A stretch of 26,652 nucleotides of DNA, taken from the IMG/VR virus record IMGVR_UViG_3300010150_000130, positions 1 through 26,652 of that record; one strand, written 5' to 3'. Position numbers and translations under genes: made by a program. Source of the stretch: a virus. Under the pieces are notes generated by a model. It was not told the origin of the DNA, did not search any database, and saw only the letters and a program-made list of their open reading frames with translations. Shown piece by piece: positions 2,712 to 20,805 of the stretch (its first letter is position 1; the number at the start of each line of letters is the position of its first letter).

Positions 2712-3131
2712 ATGAAACGCAAGTACATTAACAGAGATCCGTGTGTAGTAATGATAGAGGGGGAGCCAGCCTCGAAAGCAAACTCTAGGAGGTTGGTCTA
2801 TATCAAGGGACGAGCAGTGTTTATCAAGAGTAAGAAGGCATTGTCCTACAAGAAAGCATTTGAATTACAATGCCCTACTCGCAAAGATCTGTACAAGAAA
2901 GGACAGGATTTAGTGGTGGCAATGAAGATTTTTTATAAGACACGCAGACCAGACTTAGATGAGTCATTGATCTTGGATTTACTAGAGGGTCTTGTGTACG
3001 AAAATGATCGACAGGTAAAGATGAAATATATAGAGTGGGGCCTCGACAAAGAAAGGCCAAGGACGCACATAGTAATATCTACTATAGATAATAAAGAGAA
3101 AGTTATAGAAACTTTATTAGATAATATATAG
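2712..3131 (+). CDS. rusA: RusA-like Holliday junction resolvase
   Basis: A 139-residue protein (from ATG 2712) with the RusA pattern: an early GEPASKANSRR block, then RRPDLDE (Asp81, Asp83) and YENDRQVKMK (Asp99). These correspond to the catalytic acidic triad of RusA, in which Asp residues coordinate magnesium for paired nicking of four-way junctions. The length matches the usual 120-140 residues. In phages this enzyme resolves recombination intermediates and branched DNA before packaging. It sits 23 bases before the primase-helicase gene in the same operon. A GTG start at 2676 is possible; neither start has a strong ribosome binding site. Confidence 0.78.
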   Translation: MKRKYINRDPCVVMIEGEPASKANSRRLVYIKGRAVFIKSKKALSYKKAFELQCPTRKDLYKKGQDLVVAMKIFYKTRRPDLDESLILDLLEGLVYENDRQVKMKYIEWGLDKERPRTHIVISTIDNKEKVIETLLDNI

Positions 3132-3154
3132 TTAGATAAGGGAGAGTATAGGTA

Positions 3155-4921
3155 ATGTCTACTGAGATATTGCAGATAGCTAATAATCTAGGGATTGGAC
3201 AACACAAGATTGCTTGTCCAGAATGTCAGGACAGTAGGACTAAGCACAAGAGGGACAGACCTCTGTCTGTGCGAGTCGATGGCAAGGGTGTTCAGTATCG
3301 CTGTCATCACTGTGATGCAGAAGGCGGTTGGATAAATCAAGCAGAGCGAACAAACACATGGGGAAATTTTCCCCCGAAAGCAAGGGAGCAAGAGGTGAGA
3401 ACCATCAAGCCAATAGTTATCAGAGAGAACGAGACAAACCAGAAGGCGTTGGACTATCTTAAGTCTAGAAGTATTGCCGACGAGATCATCGACAAGCACA
3501 CCATACTTTCCACGTACCGATTCAACGGCAAGACAGTCCCTGCTGTTGGCTTTCCGTACAGAGATGGGAAGGATGTAACTGCTGTAAAGTGGAGAAGTGC
3601 TGACAAGCAGAAAAACTTTTCACAAGAGAACGTGTGCGAAGACTTCTTTAACCTGGACTCATATGTTGATGGCAACGATATCTTAATCTGCGAGGGAGAG
3701 TTAGATGCGTTGGCATGGATGTCATGTGACCTACCAGAAAACCTTACTGTACTTTCGATTCCCAATGGCGCTCCTGCTGGTGTGAAAGATGGAAAGATTG
3801 ATCCGAAGGATGACAATAAGTTTCGGTATATCTGGCGAGCAGAACGGCAACTAAAGCTATGTTCAAAAATAATTTTAAATACAGACGACGATGCACCAGG
3901 CAAGGCTTTGGAAAAAGAAATCATTCGGAGAGTGGGAAGCAGTAAGACTTGGCTTGTTTCTTTGGATGAATACAAAGATGCATCGGAAGCATTGGAGGCG
4001 GAAGGACAGCGTTACCTTGAGAATCAGTTGGACAAAGCCAAGGTTCTTCCAATCATCGGAGTCAACACAGTCGATGATATCTTTGATTCAGTGGTAGACC
4101 TTTATGAACAGGGACAAATCAAGGGTGCATCTACTGGGCTAACTGCTTTAGATGAATACATGCAAGTACCCCTTGGTATGCTAACGATTGTTACAGGCTT
4201 CCCTGCCTCTGGCAAATCGGATTTAGTTGATCAGCTATGCGTGAACCTAGCACGAAGCAACAACTGGAAGACTGTCTTCTGTAGCTTTGAGAAGCCAGCA
4301 GATTATCACTATGCACAGTTGAGTCAGAAGATAATAGATCGTCCATTCTTTATTGAGAATGAAGCGAGTCGTATGTCCCCAGAAGAGGTAGAGTTTAGTA
4401 GGGAAGTGATGAAAGAAAACTTTGTGTTCATGGACAACAGAAGTGGGGGAGCGTCAGACATAGACAGCATACTTAGGAAGGCATCCGAATGTGTACTCAG
4501 ATATGGAAGTAGGATACTAGTGATTGATCCTTACAACTACATTGATATGGGTGGGGGAAGAGAGACTGATGCCATTAGTCAGATGCTGACAAAGATACAG
4601 CAGTGGGCAAAGAACCACGACGCTCATGTATTTTTTGTGGCTCACCCTGCTAAGCTCAGCAATGAACGTAGGTCAGGGAAGAAGGTAGTCGTAACAGGAT
4701 TAGATATCTCAGGTTCACATACCTGGTTCTCCAAAGCCGACATCGGACTTACAGTATGGAGACATCCAAAAGATGAGGAGCCACCCGAAGCTCATGTATG
4801 GAAGGCAAGGTGGAACTGGGTAGGCAAGAATGGATCATGCCCCCTCCACTATGATAAGTTCAGTGGTAGGTGGCAGAACTACGGCCCTGCATTTGATGAC
4901 TACGACTGGGACTTTGAATAA
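3155..4921 (+). CDS. Bifunctional DNA primase-helicase (T7 gp4/Twinkle-like)
   Basis: A 588-residue protein. Cys21, Cys24, Cys50 and Cys53 form an N-terminal zinc ribbon. A TOPRIM primase core follows, with Glu180 in ILICEGELDAL and Asp244-246 in LNTDDDAPGK. The C-terminal RecA/DnaB-type helicase has Walker A GFPASGKS (348-355), Walker B ILVIDPYNYID (Asp458) and FFVAHPAK (491-499). Such proteins form a hexamer that unwinds the fork and primes lagging-strand synthesis. The start has GGAGAG about 9 bases upstream. The 3' end overlaps the convergent HD-protein gene by 22 bases. A GGGGAAATTTTCCCCC palindrome lies in frame at 3360-3375, encoding the linker WGNFPPKA between zinc ribbon and TOPRIM. 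Confidence 0.9.
   Translation: MSTEILQIANNLGIGQHKIACPECQDSRTKHKRDRPLSVRVDGKGVQYRCHHCDAEGGWINQAERTNTWGNFPPKAREQEVRTIKPIVIRENETNQKALDYLKSRSIADEIIDKHTILSTYRFNGKTVPAVGFPYRDGKDVTAVKWRSADKQKNFSQENVCEDFFNLDSYVDGNDILICEGELDALAWMSCDLPENLTVLSIPNGAPAGVKDGKIDPKDDNKFRYIWRAERQLKLCSKIILNTDDDAPGKALEKEIIRRVGSSKTWLVSLDEYKDASEALEAEGQRYLENQLDKAKVLPIIGVNTVDDIFDSVVDLYEQGQIKGASTGLTALDEYMQVPLGMLTIVTGFPASGKSDLVDQLCVNLARSNNWKTVFCSFEKPADYHYAQLSQKIIDRPFFIENEASRMSPEEVEFSREVMKENFVFMDNRSGGASDIDSILRKASECVLRYGSRILVIDPYNYIDMGGGRETDAISQMLTKIQQWAKNHDAHVFFVAHPAKLSNERRSGKKVVVTGLDISGSHTWFSKADIGLTVWRHPKDEEPPEAHVWKARWNWVGKNGSCPLHYDKFSGRWQNYGPAFDDYDWDFE
3360..3375. repeat. G4A3T4C5 palindrome, copy 1 (inside primase gene)
   Basis: GGGGAAATTTTCCCCC, a near-perfect palindrome, codes for part of the linker between zinc ribbon and TOPRIM. 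It is far from the other copies, which cluster at 13.0-16.8 kb. Confidence 0.6.
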
Positions 4922-5754
4922 TGAGCATGGTATCCATCGCTTAATATCTCTGTTGCTTTTCTGTATTTTTTGCGAAGCCTTTCAAGCTCTTTGCGTAGTA
5001 CTTTTTTCCCTGGCTTGTCCCGTATTGAGGACATTGAATGAAAGTTACGCTTTGAGTTAACCATTACGTCTGCGAATTTCACGAACAAGGCTACTGGATT
5101 TTCTATAACCCTTGGTAGGTAGGTCTTAAAATAATTTTCGTTTGGTTTTTTACTTATAGCAATCATGGCATCGTAGACATAAGGGCCAAATGTTTCTTTG
5201 ATCTCGTTGCGTATTCGCTTGCGAAACTTCTTGGGCTTGGCATCTTCTATTGTGTCGTGGAGTATTGCTACTAAGTGTTCTAAGCGTCCACCCCCCATCA
5301 GTATGGTACGAAGACGAACTGCTGAAACGTGATCCATGTAGGGCATATCAATTTTATCTAATTGATTTCCATGTACCTTAAGAGCAATCTCTTCTGCCCG
5401 CTTGACCTCTTCAGCTAACTTCGTTTGCCAACCAGGGAAAGTTTGGTTAGCTCGGTCTTCCATCTGGCTTCTGTGACGCAACCAACCCACCATAAATTTT
5501 CTGTGTTCAGTCATTGCATCTTCTATGGTAGGGTGAAGGTTAAATTGCCACAGATCCTTCTCTGTTATTATAGGTAGGTCTGGAGTTTCCAGATATCGAA
5601 TACCTATTATTGGGTGTACTCTGTACCCAACATCCCATCCATTGTCACGCATCGAAACAGCAAGATCGCCATCCTCTACCACTTGTACATCATGGTTTGT
5701 AAGAGCTAACTCCTCTCTCCACCAGGGCGCACCCATGTAAATGTCAGTCTTCAT
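4900..5754 (-). CDS. HD-domain protein, SpoT/MESH1-like hydrolase
   Basis: A 284-residue protein whose residues about 138-240 carry the metal-binding HD signature of RelA/SpoT-type hydrolases: MDHVSAV (His142), AILHDTIEDA (His166, Asp167, Glu170, Asp171) and VKFADVMVNSKRN (Lys226, Asp229, Asn233). In SpoT and MESH1 this site removes pyrophosphate from (p)ppGpp, or phosphate from NADPH in MESH1. Residues 1-130 form a separate N-terminal region I do not recognise. No synthetase domain is present, so a hydrolase-only enzyme is expected, perhaps blunting a host starvation signal. The substrate is inferred. The start has GAGGAGGTG upstream and an ATGA overlap with the preceding gene. Confidence 0.72.
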   Translation of the reverse strand: MKTDIYMGAPWWREELALTNHDVQVVEDGDLAVSMRDNGWDVGYRVHPIIGIRYLETPDLPIITEKDLWQFNLHPTIEDAMTEHRKFMVGWLRHRSQMEDRANQTFPGWQTKLAEEVKRAEEIALKVHGNQLDKIDMPYMDHVSAVRLRTILMGGGRLEHLVAILHDTIEDAKPKKFRKRIRNEIKETFGPYVYDAMIAISKKPNENYFKTYLPRVIENPVALFVKFADVMVNSKRNFHSMSSIRDKPGKKVLRKELERLRKKYRKATEILSDGYHAHYSKSQS

Positions 5755-16300: not shown

Positions 16301-16738
16301 ATGCCTAACCCCAACACGATTAGCCCGAAGCAGTCTGCATTCGCTGGTTTCGTAGCATCTGGTAACAGCTATACAGATGCCTACAAACTAGCGTACAATG
16401 CAGAGAACATGAGCAAGCAAGTGCTGTACAATAAGTCATCGCAACTAGCAAAGAACCCGAAGGTGAGGGAAGCAATCGAAGCACTCAAGTCGAATGACAA
16501 GGTAGCACAAGAGGCTCACGAAAAGCTAAGCAATGACTGGATCATTGAGAAACTACAGGGCGAGGCAGTGAACGAGAGCAACCCACCTAGTAGCAGGATC
16601 AGGGCGTTGGAATTGCTAGGTAAAACAGGTGGGCTGTTCGATGATAGCACACACGTTACGTTTGAACAGCGTAGTCCAGAGGACATAGAGAAGGAGTTGA
16701 TGGAGAAGCTCACTGGATTCATGGTAGTGGATGCATGA
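16301..16738 (+). CDS. Terminase small subunit-like protein (Terminase_2 type)
   Basis: A 145-residue protein. ISPKQSAFAGFVASGNSYTD followed by AYKLAYN and QLAKNPKVREAIEAL match the N-terminal helix-turn-helix region of Terminase_2-type small subunits, and SSRIRALELLGKTGGLF is the usual second block. Small subunits form rings that recognise the packaging site and regulate the large subunit. It is odd that the large terminase gene lies 2.57 kb downstream with an oppositely oriented gene between. There is no ribosome binding site before the ATG. The family call is good; whether it works with the 19312 terminase is inferred. Confidence 0.75.
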   Translation: MPNPNTISPKQSAFAGFVASGNSYTDAYKLAYNAENMSKQVLYNKSSQLAKNPKVREAIEALKSNDKVAQEAHEKLSNDWIIEKLQGEAVNESNPPSSRIRALELLGKTGGLFDDSTHVTFEQRSPEDIEKELMEKLTGFMVVDA

Positions 16739-16779
16739 TATCAGGGTGAGTAACCATAGGGTAACTAGGTAAGACCCCA

Positions 16780-16795
16780 GGGGGAAATTTTCCCC
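16780..16795. repeat. G5A3T4C4 palindrome, copy 7 (after small-terminase-like gene)
   Basis: GGGGGAAATTTTCCCC, 42 bases after the stop of the small-terminase-like gene, at the left edge of the structured island. Confidence 0.6.
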
Positions 16796-16823
16796 TAGAA
16801 AATCCTAACTAACCCCATAGCTA

Positions 16824-17143
16824 GACACCCGCACCTCAATGCGGACACCCGTACCTCATTCGGGAAAGAAAATGCTGGTCCTGCGTGGAACGCAAAGACA
16901 AGATAAGATGCTTTGGTTTTTCGCAATGGCGAAAACTTCTGCATCCATATCGAATTAGGAAATATCTTGTCGATCCCTCTAGGATCGTAAGAGATATTTT
17001 CTGATTTGATATGGATGGGAGAAAAAGGGCGTAGTTAATCCAGGGAATTTTCAGGGCATTGCCGTGGTTGGCAATGGTCTGGAATATTGTCTGGATTAGC
17101 TCGCTCCATATGATGTTGCCTTTAATTCTGGCAAAGCCAGAAA
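16824..17143. ncRNA. Left structured flank of the 17.2-18.1 kb gene: tandem hairpins
   Basis: This gene-free stretch is packed with inverted repeats: a 20-base tandem repeat (16824-16863, 16 of 20 identical) with each unit forming a hairpin with CCTCA in the loop; TGCGT/ACGCA; TTTTCGC/GCGAAAA; a 10-bp stem 16942-16951 with 17008-17017 enclosing two inner stems; an 8-bp stem 17036-17043 with 17091-17098 enclosing CATTGCC/GGCAATG; and TTCTGGC/GCCAGAA. Extended pairing at 17034-17100 includes T.G wobbles on the plus strand, hinting at plus-strand RNA. Candidate structured RNA; strand, ends and class unknown. Confidence 0.45.
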
Positions 17144-17148
17144 GCATG

Positions 17149-17193
17149 AAAAAAGGGAAGACCACCTGGCTGTGTCTACCAGATGGCCTTCCC
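17149..17193 (-). terminator. Intrinsic terminator of the 17221-18102 gene
   Basis: A 15-bp stem (17155-17169 with 17179-17193) is followed leftward by six T. Two A.C mismatches on the plus strand become G.U wobbles in the leftward RNA, so the stem is fully paired only in that direction. It begins 27 bases after the gene's stop. Confidence 0.8.
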
Positions 17194-17196
17194 TAA

Positions 17197-17220
17197 GCAC
17201 TATTCCCTCAATAGTAGTGC
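17197..17220 (-). other. Hairpin abutting the stop codon
   Basis: GCACTATT...AATAGTAGTGC forms a bulged stem with a CCCTC loop (plus strand), directly adjoining the TAG stop at 17221-17223. Confidence 0.4.
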
Positions 17221-18102
17221 CTATTTACCAGATCGCGTGTCCTTATAGGAAATGCGACTTACTTCAGGGGTAAACTCATCTTCCAAACGCGTTATGGCAC
17301 TACTAACCTGCGTGAGGTAACGAGATACAACGCCCTTTGCAGAACTAAGAGTGTCATAAAGCATCGACGCTCTCATCTGCGAGACCTTCATGTCCACAGT
17401 GTACTTATTCTTCTTCGTGGTGCCGAAGGTTGCCGTGGTCTTAGCGTCGTTGCTTTTTACCGAGTCGCCAAGATAGTAGAGGAGATCTCCGAGGGCAGAG
17501 TCTTCCTGCGCTCCATGACCGACGGAGACTGCCAGATCACTCTTGGCGATGAGATGCTGAACCCCACTCTTCCACACTAGCTTCCTGGCACCCCAGGAAG
17601 CATTGGGTTCACCTGGTACCCAAGGGCTACACATTGCCCTGGCATCATCGCGGATTCGAGGATTAGGAGAAAGGAGACACACCCCCAAATTCTGGAACTC
17701 GCGACGCTTCTCCCGAATCGCCTTGTTGGTGTTCTTCCCCATGTCGTTCCGATCAAATGGGGGTGTTTCTCCTTGCTCCAGGAGAAGATCATGCAGGTTA
17801 TGGCCCGCTTCACGGACCTCGTCCACCGCGAAGGAAAACGCATACTCCAATAGCTCGGTAACATGAGCATGATCTTCGGTGGCCCGAAGAGTTCCCTTCT
17901 GAGTGAATAGAGGGTCAAGACTAACTACCAGGCCCGCGATTAGATTAATCGTCGAGATTCGGGCAGTGTCGCCCAACTGTCTCCAGGTGGCTCCTGCCTC
18001 TGACGCTTTCGCAAGGTCTTCACCCATCGCGTGGCACTTCTTCTTAATGGATCTTCTCACCTGGAGCAGTGAGACAGCACTAACAGATTTCTTGTTCGAC
18101 AT
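17221..18102 (-). CDS. Orphan protein of the structured island
   Basis: A 293-residue protein of no family I recognise. The start MSNKKSVSAVSLLQ has AAGGAG 8 bases upstream. The N-terminus is basic (VRRSIKKKC); most of the rest predicts as helix, with a middle region rich in Pro, Trp and Cys (AMCSPWVPGEPNASWGARK). There is no transmembrane segment, nuclease, transposase or reverse-transcriptase motif. GC content by eye is near 50-55%, above the terminase and portal genes, suggesting a separate origin. The coding sequence also contains hairpins such as GCTTCCTGG/CCAGGAAGC (9 bp, 4-base loop). The gene runs against the late operon between the two terminase-like genes, with its own leader and terminator, like a cargo or mobile cassette. 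Confidence 0.72.
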   Translation of the reverse strand: MSNKKSVSAVSLLQVRRSIKKKCHAMGEDLAKASEAGATWRQLGDTARISTINLIAGLVVSLDPLFTQKGTLRATEDHAHVTELLEYAFSFAVDEVREAGHNLHDLLLEQGETPPFDRNDMGKNTNKAIREKRREFQNLGVCLLSPNPRIRDDARAMCSPWVPGEPNASWGARKLVWKSGVQHLIAKSDLAVSVGHGAQEDSALGDLLYYLGDSVKSNDAKTTATFGTTKKNKYTVDMKVSQMRASMLYDTLSSAKGVVSRYLTQVSSAITRLEDEFTPEVSRISYKDTRSGK

Positions 18103-18120
18103 ATATGTACTCCTTATTAA

Positions 18121-18149
18121 ATAAAAAACATCAGAAGTAGTTCTTCTGA
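18121..18149 (-). terminator. Terminator-like hairpin in leader, candidate attenuator
   Basis: TCAGAAG (18131-18137) pairs with CTTCTGA (18143-18149), and leftward the stem is followed by TG and six T. It lies between the structured leader and the AAGGAG ribosome binding site of the gene starting at 18102, which is the layout of an attenuator or of a separate upstream RNA ending before the gene. The stem is short, so efficiency is uncertain. Confidence 0.5.
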
Positions 18150-18150
18150 C

Positions 18151-18573
18151 ATGTTGCAGAAGGTGCGAGTGGCAAAACTTAGTCAACATCTATGGTCTAC
18201 TCACCTTAAGTGAGTGGCTCAGACCATAAGGAGAAGACACATCGACCCCCTGGAGGGTCGCATGTTCTTCTCTGTGATGTTGCTAAGTTTTAGATTACTC
18301 AGCCGATGTTGGCTGATTAATCGGCCATATCCCTAGTTCCCTCCAGTCCACGCAGAGTTCCTACTCGCACAACATTTTTCACCCTGAGAAAGTGAATGGA
18401 AGGGAAGAGAATCCTCAGATTCTCTTGGAAGGGTGGGGGATGAGCTTTCATAAGAGAGCTTCCATTGAGATGAAAAAACATCGACCCCTCAGATGGTCGC
18501 ATTTTTTTCGACGAGAGCGCTCTGGAAGCTCTCAGCTTTTGATTGCAGGCCAGTGGGGGGGAACCCCCCGCTG
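18151..18573. ncRNA. Right structured flank: branched RNA-like fold
   Basis: Nested pairing is extensive. GTGCGAGTGG (18163-18172) pairs with 18360-18370. Inside it, 18174-18190 pairs with 18276-18291 (16 bp, one bulge) and encloses two arms, 18191-18228 and 18232-18271, giving a three-way junction. Then come 18293-18322 (GATTA/TAATC and TCAGCC/GGCTGA), 18405-18426 (8 bp, loop CCTCAG), 18473-18508 and a G-rich stem 18551-18573. The hairpin core CATCGACC...GGTCGCAT occurs twice (18240-18264 and 18479-18503). In leftward transcription this would be the leader of the 17221-18102 gene. No known RNA class could be assigned. Confidence 0.5.
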
Positions 18574-18853
18574 TGCCGTCGCTGTTGTCTGTATTTATAA
18601 ACAGTGTTTTGCACATTCTACCACCAATTTTTAGCTATATTGCAGTTTTATGTCATTTCTATTCTTTGACTAGGGGCGCGCTAGATACTAACTTGATTAT
18701 CTAGATTTCTTATATGGATAATAAATCTAGATATTTTATATAGATAATCTACTATAGATTATCTATATATAGAGAAGGGGGAAATTTTTTGAAGATTTTT
18801 TCTATAATAATTTGCGCTCTCCTGCTTTCTTCTTGTAGTTTAAGAACAGAGCA
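18574..18853. other. AT-rich gap with inverted repeats before late operon
   Basis: No ORF of note. TATCTAGATTT (18698-18708) and AAATCTAGATA (18723-18733) form an 11-bp inverted repeat; TAGATAATCT (18741-18750) and AGATTATCTA (18756-18765) form a 10-bp one with a 5-base loop. GATTATCTA or its complement occurs three times. TTGACT at 18666-18671 could be a -35 box for the late operon, but the -10 is weak. Position near the terminase genes makes a packaging site or late regulatory region plausible. Confidence 0.45.
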
Positions 18854-19308
18854 ATGTTGGTGGGGAGATCAAATATACCTAGAAGGGTGCCAAGATACTT
18901 AAGCGTAAAGATATATTTTATGTTCTAGCAGAAGCAGTTGAAGCATACAAGGCTGCTGCTTTTCGTGATCGACATGGATATGCGAAGCGTGGGTATACGG
19001 CAAAAGAAGTAGTAAAGCAGTTTCCTAAATATTTTTCTATGCACAGTAGTGGTAAGATTAAGTTTATCGGAAAGAGTGCTGACGAAGTTCTAGAGGATTA
19101 CTTGCAGAAAATAGGGCATGAACCTAATAGTAAGCATTGGTATATTTTTGCGCGTCAGGTTATTGAGTTAGCACAGGACGACAGTATCGGAAGCGGAAAA
19201 GTTACAGAAGCCTATTTTAAAAAGCCTAAAAGAACCAATCGTGTTAGTAGTAGTAAGCGTACCAGAAAGGTACATCGTCGAAAATGGTCTAGAAAATCCT
19301 ATGAGTAA
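18854..19308 (+). CDS. Small basic protein before large terminase, apparent frameshift near 18880
   Basis: The frame ending at 19308 is open back to a TAG at 18880-18882 but has no ATG, GTG or TTG before 19039. An ATG at 18854 starts another frame (MLVGRSNIPRR) that would join it by a single -1 shift near 18880, giving a natural-looking NIPRKGAKILKRKD joint and about 150 residues. The conserved-looking part (DIFYVLAEAVEAYKAAAF; GYTAKEVVKQFPKYF) precedes an extremely basic tail (KRTRKVHRRKWSRKSYE). It ends 3 bases before the large terminase and could be a packaging-linked DNA-binding protein. A sequencing error, real frameshift, or a shorter protein from ATG 19039 are all possible. Confidence 0.5.
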
Positions 19309-19311
19309 TTA

Positions 19312-20805
19312 ATGCAACTAGATATAGATACTGTTACAAAGCATCTTCACTTGCTGTCTCCAAGCAAGCAAAAAGAAGTTCTCACGCTTCTTGATCAGTT
19401 AAGTGCCGCAAAAAATAAAGCTTTGTCTCAGAAGGACTTTCTTTCTTTTGTAAAAGAAGTATGGCCTGCCTTTATTGAAGGCGCTCATCACAAAATCATG
19501 GCAGATGCGTTCAATAGAATTGCCGATGGGACCCTCAAAAGGCTTATAGTAAATATGCCACCACGACATACTAAGTCAGAATTTGCATCACATCTTTTTC
19601 CTGCGTGGTACTTGGGAAGATTTCCAGATAGGAAGGTTATTCAGACTGCTCATACAGCAGAGCTTGCAGTAGGCTTTGGTCGTAAGGTACGTAACTTAGT
19701 AGGCTCAGAAGTTTATCAAAAAATATTTAATGATGTTTCTTTGAGTACAGACTCCAAAGCTGCAGGTAGGTGGAACACCAATCAGGACGGTGACTACTTT
19801 GCTATTGGTGTTGGGGGTGCTGTAACGGGTAAGGGTGCTGACATCTTGATCGTAGATGATCCACATTCTGAGCAGGAAGCTGCGCTTAATGATCCATCCG
19901 TATATGATAAAACGTATGAATGGTATACTTCAGGTCCTCGTCAGAGGCTACAGCCTGGGGGTGCCATATGTTTAGTTATGACCCGTTGGTCAAAAAAGGA
20001 TCTAACGGGAAGTATTATTAAGGCATCTATAGAAAGAGGTGGTGCGGATGAGTGGGAAGTTATAGAGTTTCCCGCAATACTTCCTAGCGGCAAACCAATG
20101 TGGCCTGGGTTCTGGCCAATTGATCAGCTTGAGGCATTGAAGGCGGAACTGCCCGTCGGTAAGTGGGCTGCCCAGTATCAACAAGATCCCACCTCTGAAG
20201 AATCTGCAATCATCAAACGTGAGTGGTGGCAGGAGTGGCCTAAGAAGAATCCTCCTTCGTGTGAATTTGTTATTCAATCTTGGGATACTGCGTTTCTTGC
20301 AAAGGAGACTGCAGATTATAGTGCGTGTACTACATGGGGAGTTTTTACAGATGAAAATGATGTGGCAAACATTATTCTTTTAGATGCGTTTCAAGAACGC
20401 CTAGAGTTTCCTGACTTGAAGTCTAGGGCCTATGAAATGTATAAAGAATATGATCCAGACGCTTTTATTGTTGAGGCCAAAGCAGCAGGCACTCCTTTAA
20501 TTTTTGAGTTACGTAGAATGGGAATACCTGTAGGGGAGTATACCCCTAGCAGGGGTAAAGATAAGATTGCTAGAGTAAATGCTGTATCAGATTTATTTTC
20601 ATCTGGGCATGTTTGGGCGCCTAAGACGAGATGGGCCGAAATGGTTATAGAAGAGTTCGCTGCGTTTCCCACTGGCGACCATGATGATTTAGTAGACTCT
20701 TCGACACAGGCACTGTTGCGTTTTCGTCAGGGTGGATTTATCCGCATAGAAAGCGATGAAGAGGAAGAAGAGTTCCTTCTTAATAGAAAAGCAGATTATT
20801 ATTAA
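19312..20805 (+). CDS. terL: Terminase large subunit
   Basis: A 497-residue packaging motor and nuclease. The ATPase part has a terminase-type Walker A, NMPPRHTKS (81-89), Walker B LIVDDPH (Asp182/183) and coupling motif LVMTRW (222-226). The RNase H-like nuclease part has IQSWDTAF (Asp325), the FIVEAK block (Glu388) and GDHDDLVDS (Asp456, 458, 459). The WDTA... and ERLEFPDLK blocks fit the terminase C-terminal family used by many podo- and siphoviruses. It hydrolyses ATP to pump DNA into the prohead and cuts concatemers. No obvious ribosome binding site precedes the ATG; coupling to the gene ending 3 bases upstream is likely. Confidence 0.92.
   Translation: MQLDIDTVTKHLHLLSPSKQKEVLTLLDQLSAAKNKALSQKDFLSFVKEVWPAFIEGAHHKIMADAFNRIADGTLKRLIVNMPPRHTKSEFASHLFPAWYLGRFPDRKVIQTAHTAELAVGFGRKVRNLVGSEVYQKIFNDVSLSTDSKAAGRWNTNQDGDYFAIGVGGAVTGKGADILIVDDPHSEQEAALNDPSVYDKTYEWYTSGPRQRLQPGGAICLVMTRWSKKDLTGSIIKASIERGGADEWEVIEFPAILPSGKPMWPGFWPIDQLEALKAELPVGKWAAQYQQDPTSEESAIIKREWWQEWPKKNPPSCEFVIQSWDTAFLAKETADYSACTTWGVFTDENDVANIILLDAFQERLEFPDLKSRAYEMYKEYDPDAFIVEAKAAGTPLIFELRRMGIPVGEYTPSRGKDKIARVNAVSDLFSSGHVWAPKTRWAEMVIEEFAAFPTGDHDDLVDSSTQALLRFRQGGFIRIESDEEEEEFLLNRKADYY

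Follow-up and report, generated by a model that had tools for sequence, protein, structure and literature searches.

A putative structured leader RNA of a hypervariable leftward gene between the terminase genes of uncultured marine phages

A leftward insert between the genes for the small (TerS) and large (TerL) terminase subunits occurs in a clade of uncultured marine phages, and in these relatives it consists of a conserved block, a G-rich hairpin, a long noncoding leader and a gene for a protein without a known family. In the window, which is the entire 26,652-base virus record IMGVR_UViG_3300010150_000130 (near-identical copies occur in two further records), the leader occupies 18121-18573. 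The preferred reading, held tentatively at a probability of about 0.45, is that this stretch encodes the structured leader RNA of a hypervariable leftward unit, whose bulk structure would act with or on the protein and which may also give a free RNA of about 420-470 nt. Confidence is held down because the folding is strand-neutral and transcription is inferred from sequence. An initial annotation had seen in the stretch the layout of either a regulatory leader or an independent RNA of about 420 nt; the long structured leader or RNA stands, with a fold far beyond chance that recurs in relatives, whereas a conserved attenuator or riboswitch is not supported.

The leftward insert and its conserved head

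TerS and TerL border the insert (Table 1), and an ORF of 89 aa precedes TerL on the right side. The closest relatives of TerL in an annotated phage collection are aquatic phages with about 46-60% identity, headed by Pelagibacter phage HTVC027P, and a terminase search led to 80 relative loci (given L numbers below). The survey of the gap examined 87 loci, of which 36 carry TerS and TerL in the same direction on one piece. The gap measures 35-466 bp in 15 of the 36 (TerL identity 66-69%) and 1.4-5.9 kb in 21 (TerL identity 70-99%; one near-identical copy of the window included), and 18 of these 21 long gaps contain a leftward ORF of at least 200 aa. The short gaps of some relatives, set against the long gaps with a leftward ORF, mark the unit as an insert whose site is empty in those relatives. 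Between the window and L088, its nearest distinct relative, the orphan protein is 38% identical, as against 92% for TerL and 93% for TerS, so change in the unit is far quicker than in its borders, whether through divergence or through exchange.

The cultured pelagiphage HTVC027P has a 548-nt noncoding gap (17671-18218; L092 3672-4219) with z of -4.4 and -5.9 in two scorings and a terminator-like hairpin inside. It is not counted as a member, the gene after the gap being unrelated by sequence to the orphan gene, and is a possible laboratory stand-in.

The conserved block ATGTGCAAAACACTGTTTAT heads the leftward unit and is the probable leftward promoter/operator region, as predicted; its reverse strand reads like a promoter toward TerL, with TTGCAC and an AT-rich element 18 nt apart. 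Its 19-nt form in the window, TGTGCAAAACACTGTTTAT, is found with at most four mismatches in 22 of the 80 terminase-relative loci, in every one on the strand opposite TerL, where one or two chance matches are expected by rough estimate. Exact and degenerate scans of viral contigs with the block pattern added L086-L091 and others. The degenerate one gave 34 records, and any of these that lack TerL or TerS and carry the pattern within an unrelated gene are apparent chance hits. After the block, most members have a run of G and, about 15 nt on, ACTGG or a similar motif, followed by a long stretch without a large ORF and then by the leftward gene. The G-rich hairpin CAGCGGGGGGTTCCCCCCCACTG is the leader's best conserved piece. 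With a G-run so near the terminase genes, a cos or packaging site was a further candidate. L068 and L073 (TerL about 67% identical) also have this block at the head of a leftward unit, whose leader is short (about 200-240 nt), and the conserved hairpin part adjacent to the block is present there in a looser form. L073 also displays, at 2800-3520 on the minus strand, CCCCCGGGGGTAACCCCGGG-type hairpins before a AGGAGAAA site that separate successive small leftward genes.

Between the block and the TerL side, the window carries an AT-rich tandem repeat (18697-18773; 26 bp, 2.8 copies), perhaps a binding array or an origin, and L088 and L007 have a similar TATAGATAATCTA-rich sequence at the same site. 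A tRNA-Asn gene adjoins the block in L097 (2414-2486, plus strand); in L068 the sequence just upstream of the block resembles the end of a tRNA, and ARAGORN reports none there. L025 contains a 78-nt match to a tmRNA model (5239-5316, plus strand; 60.6 bits), with tRNA-like ends and GGTTTCGAC, no room for a message domain and no ARAGORN call, which is possibly a stripped-down tmRNA-like phage RNA.

Table 1. Features of the insert and its borders in the window, from left to right.
Feature	Position	Strand	Remarks
TerS, terminase small subunit	16301..16738	+	phrog_51, E 1.4e-11; left border of the insert
Second strongly folding stretch, post-gene	16739..17220	-	z -7.6 and -9.4
Strong intrinsic terminator after the orphan gene	17154..17194	-	17 pairs, 9 G-C, T-run
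Hypervariable orphan gene	17221..18102	-	293 aa; no known family
ATG of the orphan gene	18102-18100	-	
AAGGAG ribosome site	18115-18110	-	
Structured leader	18121..18573	-	z -9.3 on this strand, -8.5 on the complement
Terminator-like hairpin with U6	18123..18152	-	10 pairs, 3 G-C; P ~0.95
Alternative helix, arm 2	18151..18170	-	includes CUUCUG 18162-18157, a possible antiterminator arm
38-nt repeated hairpin, copy 2	18233..18270	-	repeat family D1
Alternative helix, arm 1	18363..18375	-	partner 18170-18151
38-nt repeated hairpin, copy 1	18472..18509	-	repeat family D1; copies 79% identical
G-rich hairpin	18551..18573	-	best conserved piece of the leader
Conserved block	18597..18616	-	head of the leftward unit
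TerL, terminase large subunit	19312..20805	+	Terminase_6C 7.7e-12, phrog_38 7.8e-105; right border of the insert

Fold of the leader in the window and in relatives

On the minus strand, the G-rich hairpin (18573-18551) is followed by long hairpins to about 18176, the terminator-like hairpin, U6, AAGGAG and the ATG. This layout, described in the initial annotation as a branched fold, a 7-bp hairpin with U6, AAGGAG and an ATG at 18102, is borne out by the positions and by the fold of 18103-18600, whose minus-strand MFE of -190.8 kcal/mol compares with a mean of -138.7 in shuffles (z -8.0), none of the 100 reaching so low a value. The complement of the leader folds equally well (Table 1). Coding controls from the window (n = 4) give sense-strand z of -0.0 to -1.2, and the coding region of the orphan gene -2.1 on the sense strand versus -3.0 on the complement. 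Across 133 scanned segments of 200 bases, the averages for the two strands are -2.9 and -3.5 in the two that fall in the leader, and -0.6 and -0.4 in the 122 outside the insert. Rfam searches of the window give no family above its cut-off, and nothing of note at the permissive level either.

Strong folding also occurs after the gene and inside some coding regions, and so is not special to the leader. The segment 17021-17220, which folds strongly on both strands, is the top of the 133, ahead of the leader. The gap after the gene has z of -7.6 in the window, -10.6 in L088 and -8.0 in L019, and of -1.4 to -4.3 in seven others; the terminator found there in the window has its counterpart at 4589-4618 in L088. 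The post-gene stretch of L088 is similarly structured and different, with the core GCGAGCTAA...GCCAACCACGG...TTAACTACGC in common with the window. As a conserved RNA, the post-gene element GCGAGCTAA...TTAACTACGC was dropped, both ends being present only in the window, its copies and L088.

Fifteen leaders from the loci were prepared, and the 12 shorter than 1,100 nt were scored against 25 shuffles each, the three longer ones, L087 among them, being left unscored. All 12 fold strongly, with z of -7.5 to -17.6 on the leader strand and -5.0 to -18.0 on the complement, and they are not fully independent, L007/L091 and L012/L013 being close pairs. A structured leader thus recurs ahead of the gene, and its sequence past about 85 nt is largely replaced. 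Alignment of the window and L088 leaders gives nothing convincing beyond these first ~85 nt and the region of the ribosome site, and blast of the window leader and the orphan protein against the phage collection returns chance-level matches only.

Some parts of the fold are common to several leaders. Much of a rod of several hundred nt is found in both L012 and L008, with the same apical hairpin, and its loop GGCGGUGnAGCAUACC sits on another stem in L086, L087 and L090. In all 10 cassette records that contain the loop (5 distinct leaders), a perfect stem of 5 bp or more closes it; of 43 occurrences elsewhere in the examined loci, one has a stem of at least 4 bp and none a stem of at least 5 bp, and the 49 stretches matched in many unrelated contigs mostly lack stems. 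Several hairpins differ as complete units between two leaders, L086 having them and L090 lacking them. A palindromic hairpin, GCGAGCAAGCTCGC, is common to the otherwise unrelated leaders of L012, L019 and L087. The leaders of L087 (unscored) and L090 (scored) contain a small ORF near their end; in L086, L087 and L090 (the last from the alignment), the small ORF between leader and gene is about 85-97 aa long and contains paired cysteines.

Selection on pairing at the RNA or DNA level

Compensatory changes were counted in five leader pairs in both directions, using a Watson-Crick-only fold and a null of independent change. L012/L008 has 14 compensatory changes versus 6.9 under the null (P 0.0075), distributed over 14 pairs, and 17 versus 6.1 in the reverse direction (0 of 2000). 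L086/L090 shows 4 versus 0.1 in both directions (0 of 2000), all four within one helix, and L086 to L087 gives 26 versus 13.9 (P 0.0005). The excess is not significant from L087 to L086, nor in L007/L091 and L015/L111. A pair count of the GGCGGUGnAGCAUACC hairpin over 4 distinct rows finds one doubly changed pair, which is not above shuffles (98 of 500). Stems are less changed than loops in L007/L091, L015/L111, L086/L090 and L012/L008. The compensatory changes and the turnover of whole hairpins fit selection for pairing with turnover of modules.

The two strands fold equally well and the wobble tests are neutral, so that a DNA-level origin stays a candidate. With Watson-Crick-only folds of 16 leaders, single mismatches comprise 49 A-C and 24 G-U, against 56 and 35 in shuffles, and in none of the 10 directed comparisons of the compensation test does G-U exceed the null. 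The stretch would then be a set of DNA palindromes at a hot spot of recombination or replication, with template switching or exchange of hairpin modules, and the folding of a transcript would be a by-product. Whole hairpins of L086 that are missing from L090, and strong folding both downstream of the gene and within some coding regions, agree with this explanation, and part of the pairing signal could be imitated by template switching at palindromes. Three observations look instead like kept structures or speak against a purely DNA-level origin, namely the compensatory changes over 14 pairs between L012 and L008, the same apical loop on different stems, and stems that changed less than loops in four leader pairs; the DNA-level explanation is doubtful, though the most probable of the competitors. 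In the coding regions of the gene, the sense strand folds better than the complement in six of seven relatives (L008, L010, L025, L019, L007 and L015), L088 being the exception, but not in the window, and this bias leans weakly to RNA.

A leader RNA and its protein

If the leader acts as RNA, as preferred here, 18121-18573 would form the 5' portion of a transcription unit that runs leftward within the gap from TerS to TerL. Its transcription would most likely start just inside the conserved block, near 18597-18616, yield a large folded leader RNA followed by the message for a fast-evolving protein, and stop at 17194-17154. The weak terminator at 18152-18123 may let part of the transcripts end as the free RNA of ~420-470 nt. 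Selection would retain heavy base pairing and the 5' G-rich hairpin, with the remainder replaceable, often as whole hairpin modules; pairing that is retained while sequence turns over points to a bulk structured RNA rather than a ligand-sensing aptamer. For the leader, the most probable role would be that of a partner or regulator of the adjacent protein, either in an RNA-protein complex or through mRNA protection and dosage. The proteins of the variable genes are not uniformly basic (pI above 8 in 8 of 17 and below 7 in 7 of 17), and RNA binding is thus only a guess.

The 293-aa protein has no match among Pfam, PHROG, PADLOC and NCBIfam models and no clear relative in the annotated phage collection, in which the L088 and L008 proteins have no match either. 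A protein search of genome contigs also gave none, and the L090 and L008 proteins, each scanned singly, matched only themselves or near-identical records. Homologues are present in seven other loci, and the resulting group of eight (A1, window included) aligns over the full length, with 17-38% identity to the window protein and a conserved stretch around GK...KR. L008, L012 and L020 form a second group (A2), for which a distant relationship to A1 is suggestive only (E 0.0017, probability 16%). The AlphaFold model of the orphan protein has a pLDDT of 83.6 and a pTM of 0.80. Foldseek finds no convincing match for it (best E 0.40 in the PDB, 0.34 among viral models), the best VIA-align Z of 7.1 lies within the range of common arrangements, and a profile search of PDB sequences gives nothing below E 0.29. 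The coding sequences of the variable gene in L008, L010 and L025 have sense-strand z of -7.2 to -8.2, unusual for coding sequence.

An unlikely alternative is a hypervariable RNA-protein pair, in which a large, almost fully paired RNA of exchangeable hairpin modules and its fast-evolving binding protein, made together, would be directed against the host, e.g., in anti-defence or host takeover, and the amount and shape of pairing, not the sequence, would be selected.

The terminator-like hairpin and attenuation

The region 16700-19100 contains seven terminator-like sites, versus 1.9 expected. The one ahead of the orphan gene has a 7-bp core (18149-18131), which extension to 18152-18128 brings to 10 pairs, and a U6 run at 18128-18123. 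The alternative folds suggested earlier for the adjoining arm 18151-18172 exist on paper. Pairing of 18170-18151 with 18375-18363 gives a 13-bp helix with a 7-nt bulge, in a nested fold 4 kcal/mol above the MFE, and CUUCUG 18162-18157, a repeat of the terminator 3' arm (CUUCUG 18137-18132), can form a 6-bp antiterminator with CAGAAG 18148-18143 (P 0.04, 2.6 kcal/mol worse). Evidence that either the antiterminator or the long-range helix is used was not found.

Attenuation in the window phage alone is possible on these elements, if rather improbable. CAGAAG 18148-18143 would pair either with CUUCUG 18162-18157, for read-through, or with CUUCUG 18137-18132, for termination, the choice being set by the long-range helix or by a bound protein. 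The terminator's P of ~0.95, the energies of its competitors, and a U6 and ribosome site in place suit such a switch, but the stem is weak, with 3 G-C pairs, and the layout is absent in L088, which has no terminator-like site ahead of the gene. Among 14 leaders, only four (window, L010, L087 and L090) have such a site within their final 150 nt, and in L087 and L090 it follows the small extra ORF. Neither Rfam on the window nor comparison of the window with L088 reveals a conserved aptamer core of the riboswitch type. Together with the 4 of 14 count, this leaves attenuator or riboswitch-like control unsupported as a conserved function, and the leader layout first described is real but local.

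Comparison with known systems

In phage HK022, the putRNAs are about 70 nt long with two stem-loops, and putL lies just downstream of PL, as described in PMC9378689. The leader resembles them as a folded RNA that would directly follow a phage promoter, here the predicted one of the block with the hairpin behind it; it differs in being several times longer, with only the first hairpin conserved. Antitermination of the put or nut type, in which the promoter-proximal G-rich hairpin would modify RNA polymerase to pass the terminators of the leftward unit, draws on this hairpin being the sole sequence-conserved part directly after the block and on its looser form in the short leaders of L068 and L073. 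It is nonetheless quite improbable, since several hundred nt of further structure would be left unexplained and the strong post-gene terminator would be purposeless if ignored. Least probable is a pair resembling a type III toxin-antitoxin system, with an RNA antitoxin, a weak terminator and a toxin gene, for although the order of RNA, terminator and gene in the window is that described for ToxIN (PMC5772629), the leader has no tandem repeat array, and the protein is no recognised toxin and has no Pfam, NCBIfam or PADLOC family match. Structural searches with the orphan model gave no match to a ToxN-like endoribonuclease fold, which is no proof of absence.

GOLLD and ROOL are described in PMC12286853 as phage-encoded noncoding RNAs of several hundred nt, extensively folded and of unknown function. 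The window leader is likewise phage-encoded, several hundred nt long and extensively folded. Unlike them, it directly precedes a protein gene, its sequence core is not conserved and the window has no tRNA; the covariance models of GOLLD, ROOL and OLE find no match in the window, also at permissive level, and none at gathering level in 16 relatives. A literature search found no paper on a phage structured noncoding RNA together with terminase, and other listings came without this element.

If the RNA is made and used, it would represent a class of large phage RNAs detected through architecture and fold instead of sequence, as sequence searches with one member find almost nothing else though all scored members fold extremely well. 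The gap between TerS and TerL of these marine phages would then be worth searching for fast-evolving genes of phage-host conflict. Extra units among phage genes are known as morons or cargo inserts. Like them, the leftward unit is an addition in opposite orientation, located at a fixed position between late genes and provided with a promoter-like block and a terminator of its own; it is distinguished from them by its unusually large folded noncoding part and by a content that turns over while the head block stays.
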